Shown piece after piece: positions 49,937 to 64,000 of a DNA stretch of 64,000 nucleotides (within the stretch, counting starts at the first letter, position 1; every line of letters starts with the position of its first letter). Origin of the DNA: Rickettsia bellii RML369-C (lineage in GTDB: Bacteria > Pseudomonadota > Alphaproteobacteria > Rickettsiales > Rickettsiaceae). The stretch lies in assembly GCF_000012385.1 (NCBI RefSeq), contig NC_007940.1, forward strand, positions 930,001-994,000, in the 5' to 3' direction. Both the position numbers and the translations under genes were made by a program. The notes beneath the pieces were generated by a model, which was not told the origin of the DNA, made no database searches, and worked only from the letters and a program-made list of their open reading frames with translations.

Positions 49937-51565
<1,629 letters not shown>

Positions 51566-51568
51566 TTT

Positions 51569-51943
51569 ATGATTCTCAGAAGATTATTTGCTTTCTTGAT
51601 TGATAAAATTATAATTGGAATGTTGCTATCATTGACTATAGCATTTGCAAGAGACACTATAATAGAAATTGCTTTATTTTTTATCATTTCAGGAGTTTAC
51701 TTTTCTTACTTAGAATCTTCAAAAATACAAGCGTCTATTGGGAAAAAATTACTAGATTTAAAAGTAGTTCATCAAGATGGAACTACTCTTAAAGGTAGTG
51801 AAGCATTTATTAGATTTATCGCTTTTTATGTGATTAATTTAACTGGTATACTTTTTGTAATAAGCATTATTATGATGATTATGAGAGAAGATAATAAGAT
51901 GCTTCATGATTTAGTGTTTAATACACAAGTAGTAAAGTCGTAA
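51569..51943 (+). CDS. RDD family membrane protein
   Basis: A 124-residue protein with three hydrophobic segments and the RDD-type start MILRRLFAFLIDKIIIGMLL (Arg ... Asp). A second motif SIGKKLLDLKVVHQDG follows, then an Arg-Phe-Ile block. RDD proteins are small inner-membrane proteins, some linked to ion transport. It begins three bases after coxA and overlaps the cyclo-ligase start by one base, so it is part of this operon. Confidence 0.8.
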   Translation: MILRRLFAFLIDKIIIGMLLSLTIAFARDTIIEIALFFIISGVYFSYLESSKIQASIGKKLLDLKVVHQDGTTLKGSEAFIRFIAFYVINLTGILFVISIIMMIMREDNKMLHDLVFNTQVVKS

Positions 51944-52464
51944 TGACTAAACAAGAGTTACGCTTGTATTTCAAAGAGTTTTTAACAAAAAATATAGATA
52001 AAATAAATTCTGATTTAATAAAAACTTCTTTACTAAATCAAGTCAGTAATTTATTAAAACAGTTAAAAGTAAAGCATGTGGGAATATATTATCCACTAAA
52101 ATATGAAATTAACCTCCTTGAAATATTAAATATTCATCATGAAATAAAATTTTTTCTGCCTAAAATTATAAATAATGAAATAAACTATTGTGCTTATAAT
52201 TATAATGATGAACTAGTTTTAGGGAGTTTTAAAACTTTAGAACCGATAAATAATGATTTCTATAAACCAGAATTGATAATTGTCCCAGGTCTGGCATTTA
52301 GTAAAGATGGCTATAGACTTGGTTATGGTAAAGGACATTTTGATCGATACCTAAATAATAATAAAGATATATTAACTGTCGGTGTTTGTTTAAAAGAACA
52401 AGTTATAGATAACTTTCCTGTTGAATTACATGATCAGAAACTTAATTTTATTATTTCTATATAA
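51943..52464 (+). CDS. 5-formyltetrahydrofolate cyclo-ligase
   Basis: The enzyme converts 5-formyl-THF to 5,10-methenyl-THF using ATP. The 173-residue protein has the N-terminal MTKQELRLYFKEFL helix, a YYPLKYEIN segment and the family signature PGLAFSKDGYRLGYGKGHFD (about residues 110-129). Length fits the family. It overlaps the RDD gene and is followed after five bases by the amidotransferase-type gene. Confidence 0.9.
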   Translation: MTKQELRLYFKEFLTKNIDKINSDLIKTSLLNQVSNLLKQLKVKHVGIYYPLKYEINLLEILNIHHEIKFFLPKIINNEINYCAYNYNDELVLGSFKTLEPINNDFYKPELIIVPGLAFSKDGYRLGYGKGHFDRYLNNNKDILTVGVCLKEQVIDNFPVELHDQKLNFIISI

Positions 52465-52469
52465 AAAAT

Positions 52470-53219
52470 ATGAATAGAAAACCTATAATAGGAATTACTC
52501 CTGATTTAGCTCAAAATTGTGAGAAATATAGCTATGCCGCTTTTCCTTGGTATGCATTACGTAAGAATTATACCGATGCAATAATCGAAGCCGGCGGCGT
52601 CCCTATGTTACTGCCATACCAAGCTGAAACAATAGATCATCTCATGGATTTTATTGATGGTGTTATATTACCTGGCGGTGATGAAGATATACACCCTAAA
52701 TTTTATGAGCCTGAATATGCTGAAGATGTAGTAATTTCTAATGAAGAGCGTGATAATTTTGAAATATTAATTTTAAAGAAATCGTTAGAAAAAAATATAC
52801 CTGTTTTAGGAATATGCCGAGGAATGCAACTAATAAATGTTGTTCTAGGTGGCACTCTTATTAAGCATATTCCAGATTATATTGAAGAGACAAAACAGCC
52901 TATAATCATAAACCATACCCAGCCTCATCCTAAAGATATAGTCTCGCATGCAATTAGTATAAAGCCAAATACTAAGCTTGCTAGAATGGCAAATAATAAG
53001 CTGGACACAATGGTTAATTCAACTCACCATCAAGCTATTAAACAAATTGGTAATAATCTTATTATATCAGCAAAAGCAGAAGACGGGATTATAGAAGCAA
53101 TAGAATCAACAAGCCATAAATTTCTTATCGGCGTACAGTGGCATCCTGAATATGTCAATGATAATGGCATAGACTTGACTTTATTTAAGGAACTAATCAA
53201 AGCTAGCACTATACAATAA
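52470..53219 (+). CDS. Class I glutamine amidotransferase-like hydrolase (PuuD/peptidase C26 family)
   Basis: A 249-residue protein with the GAT1 fold. It has GVILPGGDEDIHPKFYEPE, the nucleophile elbow LGICRGMQLINVVLGG (Cys near residue 113), MVNSTHHQAIKQIG and the catalytic His in VGVQWHPEYV-type context (IGVQWHPEY). This set matches gamma-glutamyl-gamma-aminobutyrate hydrolases of polyamine breakdown. The true substrate in this organism is unknown. It is the last gene of the coxA operon. Confidence 0.88.
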   Translation: MNRKPIIGITPDLAQNCEKYSYAAFPWYALRKNYTDAIIEAGGVPMLLPYQAETIDHLMDFIDGVILPGGDEDIHPKFYEPEYAEDVVISNEERDNFEILILKKSLEKNIPVLGICRGMQLINVVLGGTLIKHIPDYIEETKQPIIINHTQPHPKDIVSHAISIKPNTKLARMANNKLDTMVNSTHHQAIKQIGNNLIISAKAEDGIIEAIESTSHKFLIGVQWHPEYVNDNGIDLTLFKELIKASTIQ

Positions 53220-53361
53220 TTAGAATTAGGCAGGGTGTAGTCCTAGAGTCATTATTACAAGGAAAAATTGGCTTTATTGCATGTCTTCAATATTATTCCT
53301 ATATACGATTTCATTCCTGCGAAAGTGGAAATCCAGAAATAAAAAGCAATATTTTTCTAAT

Positions 53362-54687
53362 CTATATAAAACTACTATCACCACTTGACCCTGAAATGCT
53401 AATATCGTCAGCTATATTTTGGTGGTCGATTATTGCATTAATCTCATCTTCTAAATCTATAATATTTCCTTTGGTAATTTTGTTTTTACTTAAAAGGTCT
53501 TGTAGGTTATTTGTTACTTGTTCTATATCGACTTTATTAATTAGAAGCTTAGCTTTACATGCAATGTTCTTTAATTGTTCTGCTATTTTAGTTTTATCAT
53601 TAACATTAATAGTAGCATTATTAGATATTTTATCGTTTAAGTCATCCGTTAACTTTTGAAATTTATCATCCGTTTTTTCTATGTTTTTATTTCGCTGTAA
53701 GTATTTCTCAATTATAATTTGACTCTGTTGATCTATATTATTTTGCTCTAAATCTATATGTGTAATGGTAGTATTTTCTTTTAAAGCTTCAATAATTGCT
53801 TTTATTCCTACAGTCCCTATATAATTCGTATTAAGGCAAAGATGAGTAAGAGTATTAAGTTGTAAAACTTCGGCTAATACTGATATTTTTTGATTACCTA
53901 AATCACATCCGCTAAAATCAAGTTTCTTTAGTTGTGTACTTGCTTTTAGGGCTTCAGTAATAATTTTTATACCTTGGTCACTTATAGTGCTACCCATAAA
54001 ATCGATAGCGGTAATTGTCTTGTTAATCTTTAATTTATCTGCAACCAATTGAGCAAAATCATCTGTTATTATTTGATAACAAAGACTGACAGAGGTAGGA
54101 TCGTGAAAAAATTTATTTACTGTTTCGGCAAATTCGTTATTTTCCGAAAGTATTTGTTTTTGCTGTTCTTCATATTTCTTTTCTACCTCCTTTTCTGTAT
54201 TTAAGTTCTGTGCTTTTTTCTCTGCTATAGTTTTATTTCTTTGTAAATACTCATTAATTGTTTCTAATATTGCCTTGTTTATGTTGTTTCCTGAAAGGTC
54301 AAGATGAGTTAGAGAGTCATTATCTTTAAGTGCTTTAGCGATGAACTTTGCACCGTTATTGTTTATATTGTTATTTGAAAAATAAAGCTCAGTTAAATGG
54401 TTATTAGCTTTAAGTGCTTCAGCGATGTATTTTGCTCCAGTATTGCCTATATTGTTTCCTTGAAGGAATAGCATAGTTAAATGGTTATTAGCTTTAAGGG
54501 CAGCAGCTAATTCTTTTGCTCCAGCATCGTCTATTTGGTTCTCATGAAGATTAAGCATAGTACCATGATGTCTTAAGTTATCTGCTCTTTGCTTTAATCC
54601 TCTTTTTTCTACAAATTCTATTAAATTTTCATGTGATGTTTTTGCTGCTGATATTTCTTGTGGAGTTTGAAACTGTCCTCTAAACAT
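53362..54687 (-). CDS. Leucine-rich repeat protein (ribonuclease-inhibitor type), effector candidate
   Basis: A 441-residue protein. After MFRGQFQTPQEISAAKTSHE there are LRRs of the RNI type of about 28 residues (NNHLTELYFSNNNINNNGAK is one unit). One block spans about residues 40-150 and another about 210-330, split by a Lys/Glu helix. The C-terminal part is helical. There is no signal peptide. Such proteins resemble NLR-type LRRs and are effector candidates in Rickettsia. The upstream region and the first 20 or so codons match those of the ankyrin gene at 63390. Confidence 0.85.
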   Translation of the reverse strand: MFRGQFQTPQEISAAKTSHENLIEFVEKRGLKQRADNLRHHGTMLNLHENQIDDAGAKELAAALKANNHLTMLFLQGNNIGNTGAKYIAEALKANNHLTELYFSNNNINNNGAKFIAKALKDNDSLTHLDLSGNNINKAILETINEYLQRNKTIAEKKAQNLNTEKEVEKKYEEQQKQILSENNEFAETVNKFFHDPTSVSLCYQIITDDFAQLVADKLKINKTITAIDFMGSTISDQGIKIITEALKASTQLKKLDFSGCDLGNQKISVLAEVLQLNTLTHLCLNTNYIGTVGIKAIIEALKENTTITHIDLEQNNIDQQSQIIIEKYLQRNKNIEKTDDKFQKLTDDLNDKISNNATINVNDKTKIAEQLKNIACKAKLLINKVDIEQVTNNLQDLLSKNKITKGNIIDLEDEINAIIDHQNIADDISISGSSGDSSFI

Positions 54688-55030
54688 AACTATACCCTTA
54701 TCAAATTCTATAATTTTTAATATTTTGTTAAAAATGAGCTATGGGAAGAATCTAGATAAGAAGATTTAAGAATGCAATAGAAATTTAACCAAAGATATAA
54801 ATTAGTGACTTAGGATAATTTGAGAAATGTAAGGATTAGTATAGGATAAAGGGAAATAATAGAGAGTTTTAATAATTAAAAATAATTACTACTTATAATT
54901 ATAACAAGAATATTTAAGAAATTTTCACCAAGATATAAATATAGAGAGTATTTTAGGCAGAGCTAATAACCACTGCTGTATCTGTTTCGCTCAAAAACAA
55001 TGACCGCTCTATAGTCCTGCGTTTTACCAA
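54688..55030 (-). promoter_or_regulatory. 5' region of the LRR gene, shared with the ankyrin gene
   Basis: About 340 bases upstream of the LRR start are homologous to 63047-63389, in inverted orientation. Conserved stretches include CTCTGCCTAAAATACTCTCT, ATCCTATACTAATCCTTACA and TTCTATTGCATTCTTAAA just ahead of the ATG. The region is AT-rich and probably holds the promoter; I cannot fix the boxes. It has no ORF of its own. Outside this block the two loci differ. Confidence 0.7.
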
Positions 55031-55059
55031 GCCAGCATTGTTGCGTGGATCAGTTTTGC

Positions 55060-55181
55060 CGTCTGAGCTAAGGAAATTACGAAGTAATTGACGAAGCAAG
55101 GAAGTATAAAAAATGCTAATTTATAGCGTTTTTTATTATTTTTTCTGGATTGCCACGCTCATTTCATTCGCTCGCAATGAC
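55060..55181. repeat. Palindromic element with GTCTGAGC start
   Basis: It begins GTCTGAGCTAAGGAAATTAC and includes the AATGCTAATTTATAGCG hairpin, a near copy of 24632-24753. It ends in GCTCGCAATGACGACTC, not in the matching arm, so it is a recombinant form. Confidence 0.65.
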
Positions 55182-55207
55182 GACTCTCGATCCACGCAAC
55201 AATGCCT

Positions 55208-55303
55208 ACCGTGGCTTGGGAACTAGATCCAGAAAAAACAACTAAAAATATCAATGTTATTGATATTTTTAACTGGATCCCGTGAATAAATCACGGGATG
55301 ACA
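55208..55303. repeat. Palindromic element
   Basis: The left arm ACCGTGGCTTGGGAACTAGA is degenerate and the right arm GGATCCCGTGAATAAATCAC, then GGGATGACAC, is intact. It shares the AATATCAATGTTATTGATAT core with 14487-14586. The gap 54688-55440 holds the shared 5' region and these two repeats, no gene. Confidence 0.7.
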
Positions 55304-55439
55304 CCTAAAGTGCTTTTCGATCTACGCAACAATACCGCCACAGGATGACAGGAAGAAATGAGCCACGCATGCACGCTTTATGCAAGGAATAACATATAAT
55401 CTACTTACTAACAAAACTTAAATCCGTTGACTTTTTCAG

Positions 55440-55710
55440 ATAGTTAGGTATAAATTTTAACTGAAATAGCAGTAATGCTATTTTGGGGCTTAGAAACCTC
55501 CTTGCGATTATGGCACATGCATCAGCCATTATTATGATGCAATCCTCAACACTTATGGTTGGGGATGACTATAGGCATGTCCAGAGCTTAAGGTACTACC
55601 TTAAGCTTAAAACCTATTGTGAGCTGTTAGTCGCAGTTTTTTTGAACTCCCCAACCACCAAAGTTTATACTCATTGGTGGTTAAAACTTAAATCAATTAA
55701 GTTATAACTG
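55440..55710 (+). ncRNA. Structured leader with three hairpins ahead of a hypothetical gene
   Basis: Three strong inverted repeats follow one another: AAATAGCA-GTAA-TGCTATTT (about 55466-55485), AGCTTAAGGT-ACT-ACCTTAAGCT (about 55587-55609) and AACCACCAA ... TTGGTGGTT (about 55652-55681). Between them lie GGGGCTTAGAAACCTCC, GCATCAGCCATTATTATG and CTTATGGTTGGGG. From memory, leaders with GGCTTAGAAACC, CATCAGCC and ATGGTTGGGG occur upstream of prophage or integrative-element genes in gammaproteobacteria. The 74-codon ORF in this stretch is probably not coding. It likely forms a structured RNA controlling the next gene. Confidence 0.5.
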
Positions 55711-55721
55711 GGAGCAATAAT

Positions 55722-56231
55722 ATGCTAAATCAAATTAACCATACCTCTAAAGCCATACTATTCTTATTGCCTCCTTATAATACAAAAAGCGAAAAAATCT
55801 CCTATGATACAAATTTAAGCTGCAAAAAATCAAATCTTACCCTAATAAAAATTATCAAAGCTAAGAACTATTACGACTACAAAGCTTTTGTTACGTTAAT
55901 TTACACTGTAATTAAACATCCAGATAAACCCATTATTGTCATAATAGATGAAGATATACTTAATACTGTTGAAAATACGATAATGTGGGCTGTGCTTGGT
56001 ACTTTAATTACCGCAAAGCTAATTATTGTGGCGACATATGAAAGAGATCAATCAAATATAAAATTAATTGAATTAACAAAAGATGAAAACAGATTCTTAG
56101 AATTTTCTGCTTATTGTTTTAAAACTTATTATTATATTAATTGGGAAAAGAAAATAAAAAAGATAAAAGCTAATGCTCGAAAAAATAATAACTCTATTAT
56201 TAGAGCTAAAGAATTAAAACTATCGGAGTAA
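55722..56231 (+). CDS. Hypothetical protein, possible mobile-element cargo
   Basis: A 169-residue protein starting MLNQINHTSKAILFLLPPYN after a GGGAG ribosome binding site. Its central part is a likely alpha/beta core (KAFVTLIYTVIKHPDKPIIV, then IIDEDIL; LGTLITAKLIIVATYERD). The tail is basic and helical (KKIKKIKANARKNNNSIIRA). I do not recognise the family. The conserved-leader-like structure upstream suggests a mobile origin. No neighbour shares its strand or function. Confidence 0.6.
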   Translation: MLNQINHTSKAILFLLPPYNTKSEKISYDTNLSCKKSNLTLIKIIKAKNYYDYKAFVTLIYTVIKHPDKPIIVIIDEDILNTVENTIMWAVLGTLITAKLIIVATYERDQSNIKLIELTKDENRFLEFSAYCFKTYYYINWEKKIKKIKANARKNNNSIIRAKELKLSE

Positions 56232-56592
56232 TAACTTTTTCAGATGCGTACAGATTTTTTAGAAAATACTAAAAATCATAAAATCTTCTCAAGAATACTA
56301 TTAGGGTCACTATACTTCTAATAAATTGAACCTAACACTAATATCTTTTTAGGCTTAAAATGTAATTGAATAAACAATAGGGATAAGGTGCTGGGAATTA
56401 AGCTCAGCCATTAATATAACAACTTCCGCTATACTTCTTATTTTAAAAATAATTATAATAGCAGATTCCCAGCATAAAGCGTATACTTGGAGTTAGTTTA
56501 TATTAATAGTAGAGTTCAAATACTATTAGATAAGTAAACTATAGATAAAATTATTAATTAGTCAACCCTCAATTTAAATTTATTTGACATTT
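56232..56592. other. Gene-free AT-rich stretch with an old palindrome
   Basis: No convincing gene. A 25-codon frame starts at 56244 (MRTDFLENTKNHKIF) but has no support. GCTGGGAATTAAGC and GCAGATTCCCAGCATAAAGC (about 56390-56470) are the remains of a palindromic element. The rest is AT-rich with no clear signal. Confidence 0.4.
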
Positions 56593-56726
56593 TTATAGTT
56601 TATTTTTTATTTCATTTATAGTTAAGCGTTGTTTTTTTAATTTTTGAATTTTCTTGCCTTGCTCAAATGTTTCCATAGAGTAAAGTTGATAATTTGAAGC
56701 AGTAATATCAGCAACTTCATCGGTGT
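56593..56726 (-). pseudogene. 3' remnant of an unidentified gene
   Basis: About 44 codons, ending DTDEVADITASNYQLYSMET, then FEQGKKIQKLKKQRLTINEI and a KNKL stop. The 5' side runs directly into a palindromic element (56723-56851), so the start was lost there. The last 20 residues look like a small helix-turn-helix-type region, as in ParB-like or transposase proteins, but this is too short to assign. Confidence 0.3.
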
Positions 56727-56851
56727 CATATCATAGCGTGGCTTGGGAACTAGATCTAACATAAAGCGAGATGAATCGAGCTTTTAGTGCTAGAGGCTTA
56801 ACGTATTTAAGTTTTTTTATTCCTGGATTCCCGCCTACGCAGGAATGACAT
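56723..56851. repeat. Chimeric palindromic element upstream of the secA 3' end
   Basis: The left arm is of the GTGTCATATCATAGCGTGGC class and the right arm CCTGGATTCCCGCCTACGCA, then GGAATGACAT, is of another class, so the arms do not pair fully. The middle (AAAGCGAGATGAATCGAGC, GTGCTAGAGGCTTAACGTAT) matches 62783-62906. Confidence 0.75.
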
Positions 56852-56949
56852 CGGAATCACGCAACAATGCTTCCCGTGATTTATTCACGGGATGACAGGG
56901 GAAAATGATCCACACAGGCAAAGCCTACTTAGATAGAAGTGTTTATTTC

Positions 56950-59685
56950 CTACTCGTTTAGTCCGTGGCAATATTTATATTTCTTACCTGAACCACAAGG
57001 GCATAGCTCATTTCTAGATACCTTGCCCCAGCTTGTAGGATTTTTAGGATCTCTATCCTCTGGGTTAATGCGTGATATGACAGGTCTAAGATCAGTTTCT
57101 AAGTTACTACCTGCATTATACTTACTAAATGCCGGATCTTCACGGCTTTCATGCATATTATTTTGCAGCTTTTTATTTTCAAGAGATATATCTTCTTTTT
57201 GAATATGCTTTAAGTCAATATGGAAGTGGTAGACTGTTTGAATAAAGAGTTCTTTTAAATTATTAAGCATATGCTCAAATAAATTAAATGCCTCTCTTTT
57301 ATATTCACTTAAAGGATCTTTTTGGGCATAAGCTCTAAGAGATATACCTTGTCTTAAGTGATCCAAGCTATGCAAGTGATCTTTCCAAACCTGATCAAGA
57401 GTAGTTAATAAAATATATTTTACAGCATTATGCATTAAGTCAGGACTATATGCTTCTTCCTTAGATTTATATATACTATCCGCTGTTTGAATAACAATTT
57501 TTGTAACTTCTTCTTCTGTTACATCATTTTTGCTTATCAGATTTTGATCAAGCTTTATAGCAAAAGTGCGGTGTAGTTCTACGCTTAAATTCTCTATATC
57601 CCAATCTTCTCTATAAGAGCCCGCTGGCATAAAAGTTAGCACTATTTTTTTAGCTAATTCCTCAGTAGTACTACTTAAGAAGTCATAACTATCTTTAGAT
57701 TTAATAATTTCAGTTCTTTGCTCATATATTATTTTACGCTGATCATTCATCACATCATCAAAACGTAATAAATTTTTACGTATTTCATAGTTATGCCCCT
57801 CGACTTTTTGCTGAGCTTTCTCGAGTGATCGACTAATCATTGGATGATGTATTGCCTCGCCATCTTTTAAGCCAAGCGTCCGAAGCACTCCTGAAATACG
57901 TTCTGAGGCAAAAATACGCATTAAATCATCATCAAGCGATAAGAAAAATTTAGTATTACCTGGGTCACCTTGCCTACCTGATCTACCACGTAGTTGATTA
58001 TCTATTCTACGGCTTTCATGACGTTCTGTACCTATTACAAATAACCCGCCTGCTGCAATTACTTGCTTTTTCTCTTCAGCTGTTTGAGCTTTTATCTCAT
58101 TTACTTTTTCTTTATAAGCAGCATTAGTTAAAGATTTTCTATCTATCTGCTCTATCAGCATTTCAGGATTACCGCCAAGCATAATATCAGTACCTCGCCC
58201 TGCCATATTAGTTGCAATCGTTACTGCTTTAAATCTACCTGCTTGAGCGATAATAAATGCTTCTTGCTCATGGAATTTAGCATTTAATACTTTATGCGGT
58301 ATTTTGTTTTTATTTAGAACATTAGAAATTTCTTCTGACTTTTCTATACTTACAGTACCGACAAGCACCGGCTGACCACGATCATAACAATCTTTAATTA
58401 GCTTTAAAATAGCATCATATTTTTCTTTTTTGCTTCCATAAATTTCGTCATCAAGATCACGTCTTGTAACTTTATTATGAGTCGGTACTGCTACTACATC
58501 AAGATTATATATATCTTTTAGCTCTGGTGCTTCGGTCATAGCTGTACCAGTCATGCCTGATAATTTAGGGTAATTACGAAAATAATTTTGGAAGGTAATA
58601 GATGCAAGCGTTTGGTTTTCGTTTTGGATTTTTACGTTTTCTTTTGCTTCTAACGCTTGATGTAGCCCTTCAGAATATCTACGCCCTTCCATTACCCGTC
58701 CTGTAAACTCATCTATGATCATTACTTTACCATCACGTACTAAATAATCTACATCGATCATAAACATGTTGTGGGCTCTGAGGGCTTGATTAACGTAATG
58801 TACTAGGCTTAAATTTTCAAAATCATATAAACCAGAATTGGGCTTTATAATATCCGCTTGACTTAAAAGCGATTCTACATGACTAATGCCGCTTTCCGTT
58901 AAATTGATAGTTTTTAATTTTTCATCTTTTTCAAAATCACTTACATTAAGCATGCGTACAAGCTTATCGACTTTACCATATAATTCTGAATTATCATTAA
59001 CTGGACCAGAAATAACCAAAGGAGTTCTTGCTTCATCTATTAAAATCGAATCTACTTCATCGATAATAGCAAAGTTAAAAGGACGAAGTACTCGCTCCTG
59101 CAAGCTATATTTCATATTATCTCTTAAGTAATCAAAGCCAAGCTCGTTATTTGTGGCATATGTAATATCAGAATTATAGGCTTCTCGCTTAGCTTCATCT
59201 GTCATGCCAGCAACAATACATCCAACTGATAAACCTAAAAAATTATAAATCTTGCCCATGGAAGCGGAATCACGGCTAACAAGATAATCATTAACTGTTA
59301 CGACATGTACACCTTTCTCAGCTAAAGCATTTAAATATGCAGGAAGTGTTGCAACTAAGGTTTTGCCCTCCCCTGTACGCATCTCGGTAATCATTCCTCT
59401 GTGTAATACCAAACCACCTATAAGCTGCACATCAAAATGACGCATTCCATATACTCTTCTCGAAGCCTCTCTAACTACCGCAAATGCTTCATATGCTATA
59501 TCATCTAAAGTAGCACCATTTTTAAGTTTTTTCTTAAATTCTACAGTCTTATTTTTTAATTCTTCATCTGATAATTTTTGAATCGCAGGTTCAAGCGAAT
59601 TAATTTTTGCAATGTCAGAAAATAGTTTTTTTATCGTACGATCATTTGCCGTACCAAAAATTTTTTTCAATATAGAAAACATCAA
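56950..59685 (-). CDS. secA: Protein translocase ATPase SecA
   Basis: SecA drives Sec-dependent export through SecYEG. The 911-residue protein has Walker [18 protein letters not shown] near residue 105, the [19 protein letters not shown] block, [58 protein letters not shown] and [20 protein letters not shown]. The C-terminal zinc-binding SEC-C motif is [17 protein letters not shown]. Length is normal. Confidence 0.98.
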
Positions 59686-59836
59686 AATCCTTAAACATAT
59701 TTTTGTACATATAAATATAGGCTATTTTATAAAATTATCAATTAGTTATATATTTATGTCTTTATATATTTATTTCAAACAACTCTGTTGCAGAATAATC
59801 CGTAAATAATTATTAATAAATATTATAAAATAGCTG

Positions 59837-59865
59837 TTGACGGGTATTTATTATTTTTATAGGAT
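59837..59865 (+). promoter_or_regulatory. Possible promoter of the PpiC gene
   Basis: TTGACG and TAGGAT are separated by 17 bases, 36 bases before the PpiC ATG. The -35 is good and the -10 is weak. The surrounding gap is AT-rich. It is in the divergent secA/ppiC gap. Confidence 0.4.
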
Positions 59866-59901
59866 TTAAACTTATATTTAACAAATTATGAGTCATAAAT
59901 A

Positions 59902-60756
59902 ATGAAAAAACTATCAATTGTACTTTTATCCGTTAGTATGCTTTCTAGTATAGCTTTTGCAGATAACTCAGACAGAGTAGTTGCTACTTACACAGGTGGT
60001 GAAGTAAGAGAATCACAAATAATGAAAGAATTTAAACCACAACTTAATCTTCCTTCAGGTGAAACTATCAAAAATTTTGACGATTTCCCACCACAGGATC
60101 AAGATAAATTGATAAGAATTTATGTTAATAATATTTTATTAAAGAAAGAAGTTGAGAAATCAAACATTACCTCTTCTAAAGAATTCCAAGAAAAGCTTGA
60201 AAATGCAAAAAATCAATTAGCTCAAAAAGAATTATTAGAAAATTATGTAAAATCTAATCTTACTGATAAGATGTTTGATGATGAATATAATAAATATGTA
60301 ACTAGCCTAAAAGGTAAAGAACAAATAAAAGTTGCTCACATTTTAGTTAAATCTGAAAAAGAAGCTAATGATTTAAAAAATAAATTAAACAAAGGTGCAG
60401 ATTTTGCTAAACTTGCAGGAGAATCTTCTCTTGATAAAGCTTCTGCTACAAATGGTGGCGTAATCGGTTACATTTTATTAAATCAACCAGGACAGTTAGT
60501 GCCTGAGTTTGAAAATAAAGCTTTTGCTTTAAAAGTAAACGAAGTTTCAACACCAGTAAAAACTGACTATGGTTGGCATATCATTAAGGTTCTTGAGAAA
60601 AAACCTGTACCTATCCCAACTAAAGAAGAAGCTAAAATGACTATCGATAATGTATTAGCAGCAGAAATACTGAAAAAATATATTAGCGATTTAGAAGCTA
60701 AAGCTGATTTAAAAATTATGTTACCTCCAGCTGCAAATAACGAAGCTAAGAAGTAG
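59902..60756 (+). CDS. Parvulin-type peptidyl-prolyl isomerase (PpiC/PrsA-like), exported
   Basis: A 284-residue protein with a signal peptide (MKKLSIVLLSVSMLSSIAFA) and a parvulin domain: IKVAHILVKSEKEANDLKNK, DFAKLAGESSLDKASATNGG, VIGYILLNQPGQLVPEFENK and GWHIIKVLEKKPVPIPTKEE. It should fold exported proteins in the periplasm. It is a convergent neighbour of an IS110-type transposase whose end lies 11 bases away. Confidence 0.9.
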   Translation: MKKLSIVLLSVSMLSSIAFADNSDRVVATYTGGEVRESQIMKEFKPQLNLPSGETIKNFDDFPPQDQDKLIRIYVNNILLKKEVEKSNITSSKEFQEKLENAKNQLAQKELLENYVKSNLTDKMFDDEYNKYVTSLKGKEQIKVAHILVKSEKEANDLKNKLNKGADFAKLAGESSLDKASATNGGVIGYILLNQPGQLVPEFENKAFALKVNEVSTPVKTDYGWHIIKVLEKKPVPIPTKEEAKMTIDNVLAAEILKKYISDLEAKADLKIMLPPAANNEAKK

Positions 60757-60766
60757 TTATGTGTCA

Positions 60767-61722
60767 TCAACTATGTTTTAAATTAAAAAGAAGAGATTTT
60801 AATTTAGCATTAGCGATGACAATAATTTTACGCATTAAAGCGGTAAGAGCGACCATTTTCTTTTTACCATTGTTAATGAGTCGCTCATAAAAGAGTCTTA
60901 AACCAGAAGTCTTGCTATTACGGGCTGACATAGCAGCAAGGAATAGTATAGCTTGACTCCTGCTCTACCATGTCCTACCTTTCTATATCCTTGATATTTA
61001 CCACTATCATTAGCTTTTGGAGCAAGCCCTGCAAGAGAAGCAATCTGCCGTCTTGTTAACTTCCCTAACTCCGGTAATAATATTAATAACTCAAAAGCAA
61101 CTATATTACCAATGCCATTTATCTCTTTCAATATCTCATGCTTTGCTTTTAACAGCTGATCTGATGATATAATCACTTCTACCTGATTAGTAATCTCTGT
61201 AATTTGATTACTTAAAACATCTATCATATTTATACAGCTATTTTTAACAAACTTATCTGTATTTGCTTGTTGTAATCTATTCTTTTCGGCAACTAACATT
61301 TGCTTTAAATCATTCCGTCTTTGTACTAACCGAAATAATTGTATATTTTGTTTTGATTCAGGCTTAAATACTTCAAGCTTATCTGCTCGCTCCTTACCAT
61401 ATAATCCTAATGCTTTAGCATCTAACTTATCTGTTTTTGCACTATTACCATATGATCTGATAAAATTCTTTACCTTTCTTGCATCTGCTCTATGTACTAC
61501 ATAACCTCTTTCACATAAGCTATACAATAACTCTAGTTCATATCCGCCTGTTGTTTCAACTACAGTTAGAGAGTTTGCTAAAATATCCTTATTATCATTA
61601 ATAAATTCAAATATACCGAAACTTGTATTCTCATATTCTTTTGTATCTTTTATGCCCTCTATTCCTACTACAAAATTATATTTTCCTATATCAATTCCTA
61701 TATGTTTGTGATATTTTATCAT
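60767..61722 (-). pseudogene. IS110-family transposase, frameshifted near its C-terminus
   Basis: The first 270 or so residues read as an IS110/IS1111-type DEDD transposase: HIGIDIGKYNFVVGIEG, TVVETTGGYELELLYSL, TDKLDAKALGLYGKERADKL and the C-terminal ELLILLPELGKLTRRQIASL, AGLAPKANDSGKYQGYRKVG. After GHGRAGVKL (about 60955) the frame shifts. The true continuation ILFLAAMSARNSKTSGLRLF, KKKMVALTALMRKIIVI lies one frame over, to a stop at 60767. It is therefore probably inactive unless frameshifted in translation. From memory, ISRpe1 of R. peacockii belongs to this family. Confidence 0.85.
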
Positions 61723-61975
61723 ATGTACCTCGAGATTTTATATTGTTTAGGATTGTAATCGGGCGTGCTTATCGCATCCCTTCCAACTATTCAAACTTCT
61801 CGAGAGTCGGGCTATAGTACCTTGATGACTCCGGTCGTATAAAACCTACTATACCGTGACGGTCGCTTACGCCCGCTTAATACCCTATATCATTATATAG
61901 GGTATTAACACTCTCTTATAAATGTTTATATTACATTTATAACTTATATTATATCACTTTCTTTTCTTACAATAC
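61723..61975. mobile_element. Non-coding end of the IS110-type element
   Basis: This is the side upstream of the transposase. It is less AT-rich than the flanks (ATCGGGCGTGCTTATCGCAT; CCGTGACGGTCGCTTACGCC) and ends in ACCCTATATCATTATATAGG, a perfect palindrome. IS110 elements often have such subterminal DNA, but I could not find clear terminal repeats or a target duplication, so the borders are uncertain. Confidence 0.45.
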
Positions 61976-62036
61976 CGTGGCTTGCTAACTAGATCCAGAA
62001 AATAATAAAAAATTTTTAATTTCCTCGCAATGATGC
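61976..62036. repeat. Decayed palindromic element fragment
   Basis: CCGTGGCTTGCTAACTAGAT is followed by CCAGAAAATAATAAAA and TTCCTCGCAATGATG. It is a left-half fragment joined to a GTCATTGCGAGG-type end. The right arm is absent. Confidence 0.5.
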
Positions 62037-62078
62037 AGTCTAATTTCAAAATAATATATCTTTTAAGTTAAGCAACTA

Positions 62079-62107
62079 TTGACAAATTGGCAAAAAAAAA
62101 TTATATT
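62079..62107 (+). promoter_or_regulatory. Strong sigma-70-like promoter of the 62145 gene
   Basis: A perfect TTGACA, a 17-base A-rich spacer and TATATT lie 37 bases before the ATG. It is the clearest promoter in the window. Confidence 0.7.
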
Positions 62108-62144
62108 CTACAAAATCTAATTTAAGTTAAAAAATTATTAAGCT

Positions 62145-62357
62145 ATGTCTAAAGCAAAAACTGCTTCTAAAAACAACCCAACCGCTAGGGAATCAGCTAA
62201 AGTACATTTTTATAAAGGCGAAGAGATTATACCATCAAAATATATCCCTCAACAAGGTTCTTCTTTTTTAGCTGCTGAAATCAAATCTTCCGGAGATTTG
62301 GTATTAGGAAATAATGGGCAAGTGCTACCTTGGAACTTAGTCAAAAATTTAGCTTAG
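62145..62357 (+). CDS. Small hypothetical protein
   Basis: A 70-residue protein: MSKAKTASKNNPTARESAKV, then HFYKGEEIIPSKYIPQQGSS, FLAAEIKSSGDLVLGNNGQV and LPWNLVKNLA. It looks like a small beta-rich, well-conserved type of protein with no cysteine or membrane segment. A strong promoter precedes it and tRNA-Ala follows 65 bases later. Family not recognised. Confidence 0.65.
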   Translation: MSKAKTASKNNPTARESAKVHFYKGEEIIPSKYIPQQGSSFLAAEIKSSGDLVLGNNGQVLPWNLVKNLA

Positions 62358-62422
62358 TTTGATTTAATTACTTACAAATATAACAATTTCACTTCAGTAA
62401 CTTATATAATAAGTCACATATT

Positions 62423-62497
62423 GGGGGCATAGCTCAGGGGTAGAGCATCTGCTTTGCACGCAGAGGGTCAAGGGTTCGATTCCCTTTGCCTCCACCA
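62423..62497 (+). tRNA. tRNA-Ala (anticodon UGC)
   Basis: The cloverleaf is clear: acceptor GGGGGCA pairing with TGCCTCC, then A-CCA encoded. The anticodon stem TCTGC/GCAGA encloses TTTGCAC with anticodon TGC. The T arm is GGGTTCGATTCCC. UGC reads all GCN codons by wobble. The CCA end is encoded. It lies just upstream of a repeat-rich stretch. Confidence 0.96.
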
Positions 62498-62652
62498 CTC
62501 TTTAGTTTCTGGTATCTTTACAAACACATCAAACGGCGGACGCAAGGTATAATCAAGCTTTTCGGGTTTTAGCGTCAGGTTAGCAAATACTGAATCTATC
62601 AATATTGCAATGTGCCACTGACGGCATTGCACGCATGGATCAGTTTTTCCTT

Positions 62653-62758
62653 TGTCATCCCGTGGCTTGGTCCACGGGATCCAGTTAAAAATATTAAAAT
62701 TATTAGTATTAAAAGTTGTTTTTTTGAATCCCGTGAATAAATCACGGGATGCATTGCC
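62653..62758. repeat. Palindromic element after tRNA-Ala
   Basis: The left arm is TGTCATCCCGTGGCTTGGTC and the right arm AATCCCGTGAATAAATCACG, then GGATGCA. The core AAATATTAAAATTATTAGTA matches the general type. It is followed by GCATTGCCCGCGTGGATCGA, a linker that recurs between elements. Confidence 0.75.
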
Positions 62759-62782
62759 CGCGTGGATCGAAAAGCACCCTCG

Positions 62783-62906
62783 ATGTCATCCCGTGGCTTG
62801 ACCACGGGATCCAGAAAAAAGCGAAATGAATTGAGCTTTTAGTGCTAGAGGTTTAACGTATTTAAGTTTTTTTATTACTGGATTCCTGCGATCAACGGAA
62901 TGACAT
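62783..62906. repeat. Chimeric palindromic element
   Basis: The left arm (ATGTCATCCCGTGGCTTGAC, CACGGGATCCAG) belongs to one class and the right arm (CTGGATTCCTGCGATCAACG, GAATGACAT) is the same as the right arm of 16134-16252, so the two arms do not match. The middle equals 56723-56851. Confidence 0.75.
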
Positions 62907-63046
62907 CGAAACCACGCAACAATGCCATTACGGGATGACAAAGGAAAATGATCCACGCAACAATACCTCCTCGCAACAACAATTTGAAAACTACTTAACA
63001 CCCTTACAATAATAAACTATTTGGTATTATGGTTACACACTGCAAG

Positions 63047-63389
63047 GCTTGGTTAGACGCCGTAATGTGGAGCAGTCATTGTTTTTGAACGAAACAGCTA
63101 CAGCAGCGGTTGTTCGCTCTGCCTAAAATACTCTCTATATTTACATCTTAATAAAAATTCCTTAAATATATTGTTATAATTATAAGTAGTAATTATTTTT
63201 AATTATTAAAACTCTTTATTATCTCCCTTTATCCTATACTAATCCTTACATTTCTCAAATTACTTCTAAGTCATTAATTTATATCATTAGTTAAATTTCT
63301 ATTGCATTCTTAAAACTTCTTCTTATTATCTAATTTATATATTTTTTAACAAAATATTAAAATTTATAGAATTTAATAAGGATATAATT
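63047..63389 (+). promoter_or_regulatory. 5' region of the ankyrin gene, shared with the LRR gene
   Basis: It matches the LRR upstream region (54688-55030) over about 340 bases with few gaps, including CTCTGCCTAAAATACTCTCT, TATCCTATACTAATCCTTAC and CAAAATATTAAAATTTATAG directly before ATAAGGATATAATT and the ATG. It begins inside GGTTAGACGCC, the same type of junction as in the LRR copy. The gap 62498-63046 before it contains only repeats. Confidence 0.7.
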
Positions 63390-63494
63390 ATGTTTAGTTG
63401 GTTGTTTAGCTGGTTTCAAACTCCAAAAACATCACATGAGAAGTTAATAGAGGCAATAGAAGCAAGAAATGAAGCAGAAGCACAAAACTTATAA
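63390..63494 (+). pseudogene. N-terminal leader of the ankyrin gene, cut off by a 2-base insertion
   Basis: A 34-residue ORF, MFSWLFSWFQTPKTSHEKLI, then EAIEARNEAEAQNL, ending at TAA. Its FQTP ... KTSHE.LIE pattern matches the start of the LRR protein. The second copy of this repeat (63866 on) reads AQNLIVHMDTAELSKV without a stop; here two extra bases (TA, near 63490) create the stop. With them removed the leader would continue into the ankyrin frame at 63503. Confidence 0.6.
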
Positions 63495-63502
63495 TCGTAC
63501 AT

Positions 63503-64000
63503 ATGGATACAGCCGAATTAAGCAAAGTTGACGACGGCTGGACAGTTTTAACTTTTGCTGCAGCTTATGGCTTAGAAAAGGTTTGTGAGGCTTTAATTCC
63601 TAAAATGTCAGAGCAGGCTATTAATCATGTTGATAAAGATGGTAACACGGCTTTAACTTGGGCTGCATATACAGGACTAGAAAAAGTTTGCGAGGCTTTA
63701 ATTCCTAAAATGTCTGATCAAGCTATTAATCATGTTAATAGTGATGGCAATACAGCATTAAGCATAGCTAGGAATAAAGGTTTTAAAAATATGTGTGATT
63801 TACTAACTACTATAGAAGCAACTAAGCAAAATGAAATTCAAACAAATCTTAAATTAACCACAACAAAAACATCACATGAGAAGTTAATAGAGGCAATAGA
63901 AGCAAGAAATGAAGCAGAAGCACAAAACTTAATCGTACATATGGATACAGCCGAGTTAAGCAAAGTTAACAATGATGACTGGACAGCTTTAACTTTTGCT
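63503..64000 (+). CDS. Ankyrin-repeat protein (partial, runs off the window)
   Basis: Open from ATG 63503 to the window edge, about 166 codons. Two ankyrin-like repeats (GLEKVCEALIPKMSEQAINH, VDKDGNTALTWAAYT and GLEKVCEALIPKMSDQAINH, VNSDGNTALSIARN) are followed by a second leader-like segment (KTTTTSHEKLIEAIEARNEA region) and the start of another copy (MDTAELSKVNNDDWTALTFA). The unit is about 438 bases (146 codons). Ankyrin proteins are typical rickettsial effectors. It is likely a tandemly duplicated ankyrin gene. Confidence 0.75.
   Translation, partial: MDTAELSKVDDGWTVLTFAAAYGLEKVCEALIPKMSEQAINHVDKDGNTALTWAAYTGLEKVCEALIPKMSDQAINHVNSDGNTALSIARNKGFKNMCDLLTTIEATKQNEIQTNLKLTTTKTSHEKLIEAIEARNEAEAQNLIVHMDTAELSKVNNDDWTALTFA

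Follow-up and report, generated by a model that had tools for sequence, protein, structure and literature searches.

Terminal reassortment of secreted effectors was reportedly described by Stavrinides et al. in 2006 (PLoS Pathog 2:e104). In this process, a terminal piece is recombined onto new bodies, giving rise to new putative effectors, according to the accessible portions of PMC5675462 and PMC7406222. The available parts of PMC5062602 and PMC3599309 report, respectively, that the eukaryotic association module of phage WO of Wolbachia comprises phage-borne ankyrin and tetratricopeptide repeat (TPR) genes, and that miniature inverted-repeat transposable elements (MITEs) lie in effector promoters of Fusarium oxysporum, where they can be used to find new effectors. 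For Rickettsia, the predicted type IV effectors include 49 ankyrin and 11 leucine-rich-repeat (LRR) families, as well as many that are species-specific in R. bellii (PMC9779031, accessible text). Here we analyzed a 64,000-nucleotide stretch of Rickettsia bellii RML369-C (the window; positions 930,001 to 994,000 of contig NC_007940.1, i.e., G000:C1:930001-994000 of the 1,522,076-bp genome G000), in which an LRR gene on the minus strand and an ankyrin gene on the plus strand share their 5′ region. Both genes are likely to be members of a Rickettsia-wide set of recombining cassettes, each of which would consist of a constant head of about 112 bp reaching the start codon, an interchangeable LRR or ankyrin body and often a tail.

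Such cassettes appear closest to terminal reassortment of effectors, with secretion presumed for their products. As in that process, a homologous terminal segment is joined to nonhomologous bodies. Unlike in that process, the constant piece is DNA up to the ATG with an optional protein tag, tails are also common across bodies, and exchange can be read at shared sites within one genus. The accessible main text of PMC9779031 does not describe a common 5′ module, and the words "promoter," "paralog" and "C-terminal" are absent from it. No description of a shared head was found in the literature searched, where most subscription papers were missing, and a search pairing Rickettsia with "terminal reassortment" found nothing.

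The stretch common to the two window genes comprises about 350 bp and the first codons, at 87% identity. Four inverted-repeat blocks of 124, 110, 56 and 55 nt (85 to 93% complementary) link 54680-55033 (minus strand) with 63046-63397 (plus strand) in a repeat search, the upstream match continues through the ATG in a MAFFT alignment, and blastn of the genome with 63047-63430 as the query found the LRR copy with an E value of 4.3e-118 and 87% identity across query positions 1 to 351. These analyses agree with the initial annotation, which had claimed a common 5′ module of the two genes in inverted orientation, and its own caveat, that the match might stop well before the ATG, does not apply, as the match reaches and passes that codon. 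The coding starts are alike (MFRGQFQTPQEISAAKTSHENLIE in the LRR gene, MFSWLFSWFQTPKTSHEKLIE in the ankyrin gene), and the MF..FQTP..KTSHE tag that they encode is homologous at the DNA level. The ankyrin gene calls for small corrections: its ATG is at 63390, the frame opened there is only 34 codons long, and the repeats, which start at 63503, are read in a different frame, in a 559-aa open reading frame (ORF) that matches Ank_2 at 2.4e-62 in Pfam. The KTSHEKLIE segment occurs again within the ankyrin gene as a direct repeat and is therefore also the first helix of a repeat unit, not solely an N-terminal tag. The N-terminal unit of this gene is duplicated about 440 bp downstream within the gene (two direct repeats in 63390-64000).

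Alignment of 35 copies revealed a bounded core that extends from TTAAATTTCTATTGCAT to the ATG and has an AAGGA-like site ahead of this codon. The inner core is about 112 bp long and ends at the start codon; its left edge is sharp, with unrelated sequence beyond it in several copies. A sequence-only model, R1, was built from 33 copies aligned to the start, two of the 35 being omitted; a core consensus was also computed over 55 copies. It yielded 78 matches at E ≤ 0.01 in 20 of 23 Rickettsia genomes, two of which (G003 and G017) have weak matches only. Seventy-seven of these matches entered the locus analysis, and 63 strong copies, defined by at least 40 bits with R1, are distributed over 18 of the 23 genomes. 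Applied with stricter filters (E ≤ 1e-6) to 261 Rickettsiales genomes of 122 genera, R1 matched 15 genomes, all of them Rickettsia, and found no core in the 121 other genera sampled. A 25-base pattern gave 19 stretches in a species collection, 17 of them in Rickettsia; the other two, in Chloroflexi and Bacteroidetes, fail the full model and were judged to be chance matches, as was one short phage match (54 bases, 8e-4). Plasmid records gave no match to a 124-bp core query in a search from which the window's own or near records were possibly excluded. The ATG lies within −9 to +8 nt of the model end in 58 of the 63 strong copies and exactly at the model ATG in 49, a position that is partly set by construction because R1 ends with ATG. 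In the R. bellii RML369-C genome, blastn with a 384-bp query found six places, and the core model found eight at E ≤ 0.01 (Table 1). Hand grouping of its 45 Ank_2 stretches gave 24 loci, two of which carry the head, as do both LRR_6 loci detected at the family level. Two identical head copies with equal downstream frames lie on opposite strands of one other genome (G004:323489 and G004:362290).

The boundaries of the core would fit a short mobile element, resembling a MITE or a Rickettsia palindromic element, that landed before genes and gave them a promoter. Its ends, TTAAATTTCTAT and ATAGAATTTAA, form an inverted repeat of about 12 bp (about 63324-63376 in the window), and 12 pairs join them in the consensus fold, as would be expected of the terminal inverted repeats of a MITE. 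The sharp left edge is in keeping with such an element, as are two copies in which a lysozyme gene remnant, described below, stops only 110 to 114 nt before the ATG. We nevertheless consider a mobile element clearly unlikely, given that none of the 12 predicted pairs changed on both sides, i.e., there is no covariation, and that scattered insertion would hardly have left 58 of the 63 strong copies with an ATG where the model ends, whereas MITE copies are independent of gene position. The consensus fold contains no palindrome besides the 12 end pairs (−3.22 kcal/mol). In Rickettsia palindromic elements, a palindrome or hairpin extends over the element. Named in the accessible text of PMC2635572, these elements resemble the core in their length of about 100 bp and in recurring within Rickettsia genomes, but the core lacks a palindrome except for its ends and is located at gene starts. 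The Fusarium MITEs, as presented in the available parts of PMC3599309, similarly mark effector promoters with a short repeated element, but they are insertion elements of a fungus. A structured leader RNA element was dropped as a candidate: consensus folding gave no support, and Rfam at gathering scores found tRNA alone in 50000-64000. A consensus scan found no terminators around either window copy.

LRR or ankyrin coding sequence lies within 600 nt behind 56 of the 63 strong copies (33 LRR, 23 ankyrin). The other seven comprise one ankyrin recognized by eye, one gene for a 703-aa protein, X703, and five copies without a recognizable body within 600 nt. In these counts, and in the core tree and same-site comparisons below, the body class of 11 rows was set by hand; four of them (rows 4, 20, 33 and 48, matched by both families) differ from the automatic class, and two label copies without an automatic hit, namely X703 and the ankyrin recognized by eye. 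The proposal that one 5′ module is joined to different binding-repeat bodies is borne out, LRR and ankyrin bodies being exchanged between genomes. The module recurs across the genus, and its occurrence without a repeat gene, which would have spoken against the proposal, is limited to one intact body of another kind among the 63 and the five copies without a body. X703 has no Pfam hit, and the idea that it conceals a repeat protein was rejected. A comparison with 7,996 scored candidates gave nine matches including itself, one of which is a metagenomic ankyrin-domain protein, P0007, that has a 324-aa region (32%) in common with X703. At G014:C10:13848 (L079), a 1017-aa frame, open at the locus end, contains LRR, ankyrin and LRR blocks in this order, with tblastn matches to both families; by eye, each LRR block follows KTPHEKLIEFLEKRGL. 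LRR proteins with a His-rich N terminus (MGGVASS... or MGSHFVK...) are found behind weak cores or beside prophage lysozyme at G022:1371220, G004:1416059 and L151:945-2285.

We compared the termini of the bodies. The LRR bodies start with an MKELI-type sequence in 19 of 33 cases, with an MF/MY tag in 11 and otherwise in three, and nine of the 24 ankyrin bodies (one without a readable start) have no FQ/LQ-type motif in their first 16 residues. The initial annotation had interpreted the head and the N-terminal tag together as a cassette of promoter and export signal. The DNA-level homology of the tag in the window pair favors that interpretation, but the absence of the tag from the start of those 19 LRR bodies and of the motif from those nine ankyrin bodies makes it very unlikely. 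The tag is not a constant part of the module and, being optional, is poorly suited to be a general export signal. If the proteins have a transport or targeting function in common, the shared C-terminal tails are more likely than the tag to provide it. At least three tail types, T1, T2 and T3, are found, each on both LRR and ankyrin proteins. T1 is common to the window LRR protein and ankyrin proteins of G013, G022 and G006. T2 links the window ankyrin protein with the LRR genes G000:1128043 (1.1e-11) and G021:C12 (6e-10). T3 occurs in LRR genes of G006, G013, G014 and G020 and in the ankyrin genes G012:536765 (2.4e-33) and G020:1295301 (3e-19). Against Pfam, the tails gave nothing above the cutoff.

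Different bodies occupy the same chromosomal sites. Grouping of copies by upstream flanks at least 80% identical, beyond −620, gave 13 groups, one of which is the window's own within-genome pair; seven of the other 12 mix body types. At the 508-kb site, the left flank and head of G000:508311 and G012:508296 are 94% alike, the match ending at a base 9 nt upstream of the A of the ATG. The bodies are X703 in G000 and an ankyrin in G012, and homology returns, at 93%, 110 nt past the X703 stop codon. Together with G014:C52/G015:38051, G014:C44/G015:549463 and G021:C2/G022:706877, this makes four mixed pairs that are 94 to 96% identical upstream, to within 0 to 11 nt of the last base of the ATG, at which the sequences were cut. 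Downstream of the ATG, the only blastn match at E ≤ 1e-10 is one of 67% in G021:C2/G022:706877, about 2.3 kb away; the other three pairs have none. Both flanks match around differing bodies at the 508-kb site, at the queA site (G012:1102528, LRR; G011:1197445, ankyrin), at the site of G002:C35, G022:1371220 and G006:668573, and at that of G004:12578 and G005:437069. Two small ORFs adjoin two head sites (window 55722-56231, 169 aa, and L008:4621-5079, 152 aa) and look alike by eye, sharing an LLPPYN/LLEPPYN motif; the window ORF matches no Pfam family above the cutoff.

The window LRR gene is itself a chimera with an exchanged tail, the switch lying between about 54150 and 53700. In a three-sequence scan, it is 91 to 99% identical to G012:1102528 from 54750 to 53776 and 61 to 72% only from 53700 to 53401, where it is 92 to 100% identical to G012:402341. 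The proteins encoded by the window gene and by G012:1102528 (78% overall) are closely similar in their LRR parts but not in their tails. The LRR cassette of G012 (87% to window 53400-55033) is located after a tRNA region and before queA (PF02547), at a site that holds an ankyrin gene in the window, G011 and G019. At the position of the window LRR gene, G012 is collinear with 51258-53206, followed by 128 bp and then by the equivalent of 56369-56719; these 128 bp replace window 53207-56368, and no LRR gene is present there. The G019 counterparts of 52000-53259 and 55386-55946 lie 333 bp apart, and with 333 bp in place of 53260-55385, G019 must also be without an LRR cassette at this site. No core is detectable at G012:402341 (L185:3342-4658, minus strand), an LRR gene (LRR_6, 3.7e-12), and its frame starts right behind a HisKA fragment, as if it had been given another 5′ end. 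Two near-identical IS110-type transposase ORFs of 274 aa each (60898-61722 and L011:9746-10570) flank the ankyrin region; that of the window was assigned by Pfam, and the stretch 60769-61971 is missing in G012. In R. peacockii, a leucine-rich protein gene 97% alike to R. bellii RBE_0439 is located near tra genes, according to the accessible part of PMC2791219.

Plain paralogy, by which one ancestral gene and its 5′ region were duplicated and the bodies diverged or decayed in place, would agree with the homology of the copies, with the several sites common to different species and with the frequency of decay, an uninterrupted frame of at least 200 aa being present in 33 of the 63 strong copies (some open at the end of the stretch examined). 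It is highly improbable, however, as LRR and ankyrin repeats are different families, different bodies occur at the same site between conserved flanks, the window LRR gene is chimeric, and body class is not clustered on the tree of the cores. That tree comprises 55 cores, 52 of which carry an LRR/ankyrin label; the label requires 16 changes, versus 17.2 to 17.4 in shuffles, of which 156 and 181 of 500 are as low. At least four changes of body class are forced by well-supported branches, 29 of the 51 inner branches being unsupported.

The outer 80 bp or so of the shared stretch correspond to the decayed 3′ end of a phage lysozyme gene, with a weak match for the window copies. The window ankyrin copy has no significant tblastn match of its own to lysozyme, and its reading rests on alignment with the LRR copy and on the motif GLVRRR. 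Since the outer part is a gene end, not all of the approximately 340 bp put forward initially need be regulatory. In many genomes, PF00959 matches are found just upstream of cores; usually they cover the profile's C-terminal half, and stop codons are frequent in them. A tblastn search with five full-length Rickettsia lysozymes found a same-strand C-terminal remnant upstream of 23 of the 77 copies and of 21 of the 63 strong ones, and no reverse-strand match upstream of any of the 77. In G020, intact lysozymes are surrounded by phage-type genes, tail and virion genes included, and one of these lysozymes adjoins two ankyrin genes, one TPR gene and one LRR gene, none of which has a core match with R1. 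The phage WO module, with its phage-borne ankyrin and TPR genes in an intracellular relative, is comparable to this arrangement in G020, where ankyrin, TPR and LRR genes adjoin an intact lysozyme gene, but the Rickettsia cassettes are scattered and a third have a lysozyme stump only. The lysozyme as an export partner of the neighboring gene was rejected as a general explanation: the lysozymes next to cores are truncated and mostly interrupted.

The distribution of the head, the position of the ATG, the differing bodies at the same sites, the shared tails and the chimeric window gene, all computed here, argue for a recombining set of cassettes. Going further, we tentatively suggest, with slightly more doubt than conviction, that the loci are expression-site-like, with one and the same head, and that homologous recombination between heads and tails has moved bodies and tails both among species and inside single genomes, in a system that began as phage cargo beside a lysozyme gene. 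The head, by its position and recurrence, would supply the promoter, leader and ribosome-binding site. Homologous recombination between cassettes is the most parsimonious mechanism; the head, being similar in all of them, could act as the left anchor, while repeats, tails or flanks would provide the right one. Neighboring cassettes may represent natural recombination intermediates; head-ankyrin and head-LRR cassettes lie 1 kb apart in G013, and two ankyrin genes with weak cores lie 1.4 kb apart in G000, which makes them plausible intermediates of exchange. The ancestral cassette may have been phage cargo located next to a prophage lysozyme gene, a possibility suggested by the lysozyme 3′ ends still found upstream of one-third of the strong copies. 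The cassette proteins are probably host-facing, because such repeat proteins are overrepresented among known effectors.

Several observations weigh against this interpretation. The 22 remaining ankyrin loci of the R. bellii genome, as grouped by hand, have no head, and the head is therefore not a general ankyrin promoter. A promoter consensus scan of the window copies gave 6 hits versus 3.7 ± 2.0 in shuffles and 11 versus 9.7 ± 3.2, no clear excess. No head lies directly behind a full-length lysozyme gene, and the link to lysozyme covers 21 of 63 strong copies. With a long frame in just 33 of 63 copies, many cassettes are decaying, and the shared tails could reflect old fusions, not continuing exchange. 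The largest flank groups rest mainly on upstream flanks, and a group of nine includes two copies each from G004 and G006, so that it does not represent one site throughout. The median identity of cores that share a site but not a body is 87.6% (25 pairs), as opposed to 81.5% (755 pairs) when the sites differ; in 21 of the 25 pairs, however, a partner genome contains another copy that is equally close or closer. Across 43 same-site pairs, conservation of the core (median, 88%; mean, 86.1%) does not exceed that of the flank from −450 to −241 (median, 93%; mean, 87.0%). These comparisons do not support the idea that constraint at each site falls on the core. Flank conservation and the equally close or closer partner copies indicate that the core was often exchanged or homogenized together with the body rather than fixed at the site, and only some swaps, e.g., at the 508-kb site, break at the ATG.

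The same data bear on a further alternative, that the selected feature is a regulatory site common to the genes of one program, body exchange being incidental. The conserved core spans about −112 to the ribosome-binding site, and at least one match is present in 20 of the 23 genomes, if the two with weak matches are counted, as such a site would predict. However, flanks at least as conserved as the core at the same sites, the lack of RNA-structure support from Rfam and the consensus fold, and a promoter signal not clearly above shuffles make it rather unlikely that regulation is what was selected. Exchange of bodies between cassettes that share a head remains our preferred explanation; the parts of the two window genes are listed in Table 1.

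Table 1. Features of the two head-bearing genes of the window and other copies of the core in the R. bellii RML369-C genome (window positions unless a genome or locus is named)
Feature	Position	Strand	Basis
Shared 5′ stretch of the LRR gene (lysozyme remnant, intermediate region, core, first codons)	54680..55033	-	Repeats, MAFFT, blastn
Shared 5′ stretch of the ankyrin gene	63046..63397	+	Repeats, MAFFT, blastn
Core module of the LRR gene, last bases ATG	54685..54796 (G000:984685-984796)	-	Model R1, 93.3 bits
Core module of the ankyrin gene, last bases ATG	63284..63392 (G000:993284-993392)	+	Model R1, 70.8 bits
LRR gene, 441 aa	53362..54687	-	LRR_6, 1.7e-21
First 24 codons of the LRR gene, encoding the tag (MFRGQFQTPQEISAAKTSHENLIE), which is optional among family members	54616..54687	-	Alignment
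Tail type T1 of the LRR gene, common to ankyrin proteins	53362..53754	-	Sequence comparison
Frame of the ankyrin gene from the module ATG, stop after 34 codons	63390..63494	+	ORF reading
Ankyrin repeats in a different frame, running past the window end to 559 aa, tail type T2	63503..64000	+	Ank_2
Decayed 3′ end of a phage-type lysozyme gene (GLVKRRTIERSLFLSE..., stop at end)	54953..55033	-	tblastn to intact Rickettsia lysozymes, weak, E 4.9e-4
Probable decayed 3′ end of the same lysozyme	63046..63126	+	Read by eye, same frame as in the LRR copy; alignment with that copy; GLVRRR motif at −344
Copies in the same genome: window LRR; window ankyrin; LRR 327 aa; LRR 472 aa			Model R1
Ankyrin copies in the same genome, 387 aa and 335 aa			Model R1, weak cores, 32.5 and 27.5 bits
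LRR protein in the same genome, 301 aa			Model R1, partial core, 21.4 bits
703-aa protein X703 in the same genome, without Pfam hits	L008:5203-7314		Model R1

The core provides a sequence handle for candidate host-interaction genes in Rickettsia that can be searched in any new genome, and it finds a candidate, X703, that domain searches miss. The site-by-site exchange of bodies gives the loosely described variation of ankyrin and LRR genes in Rickettsia a mechanism that can be tested and breakpoints that are defined, and a head that recurs across the genus offers a concrete place to seek shared control. If the proposal is true, expression-site-like loci would let obligate intracellular bacteria with shrinking genomes quickly remodel their host-interaction proteins.

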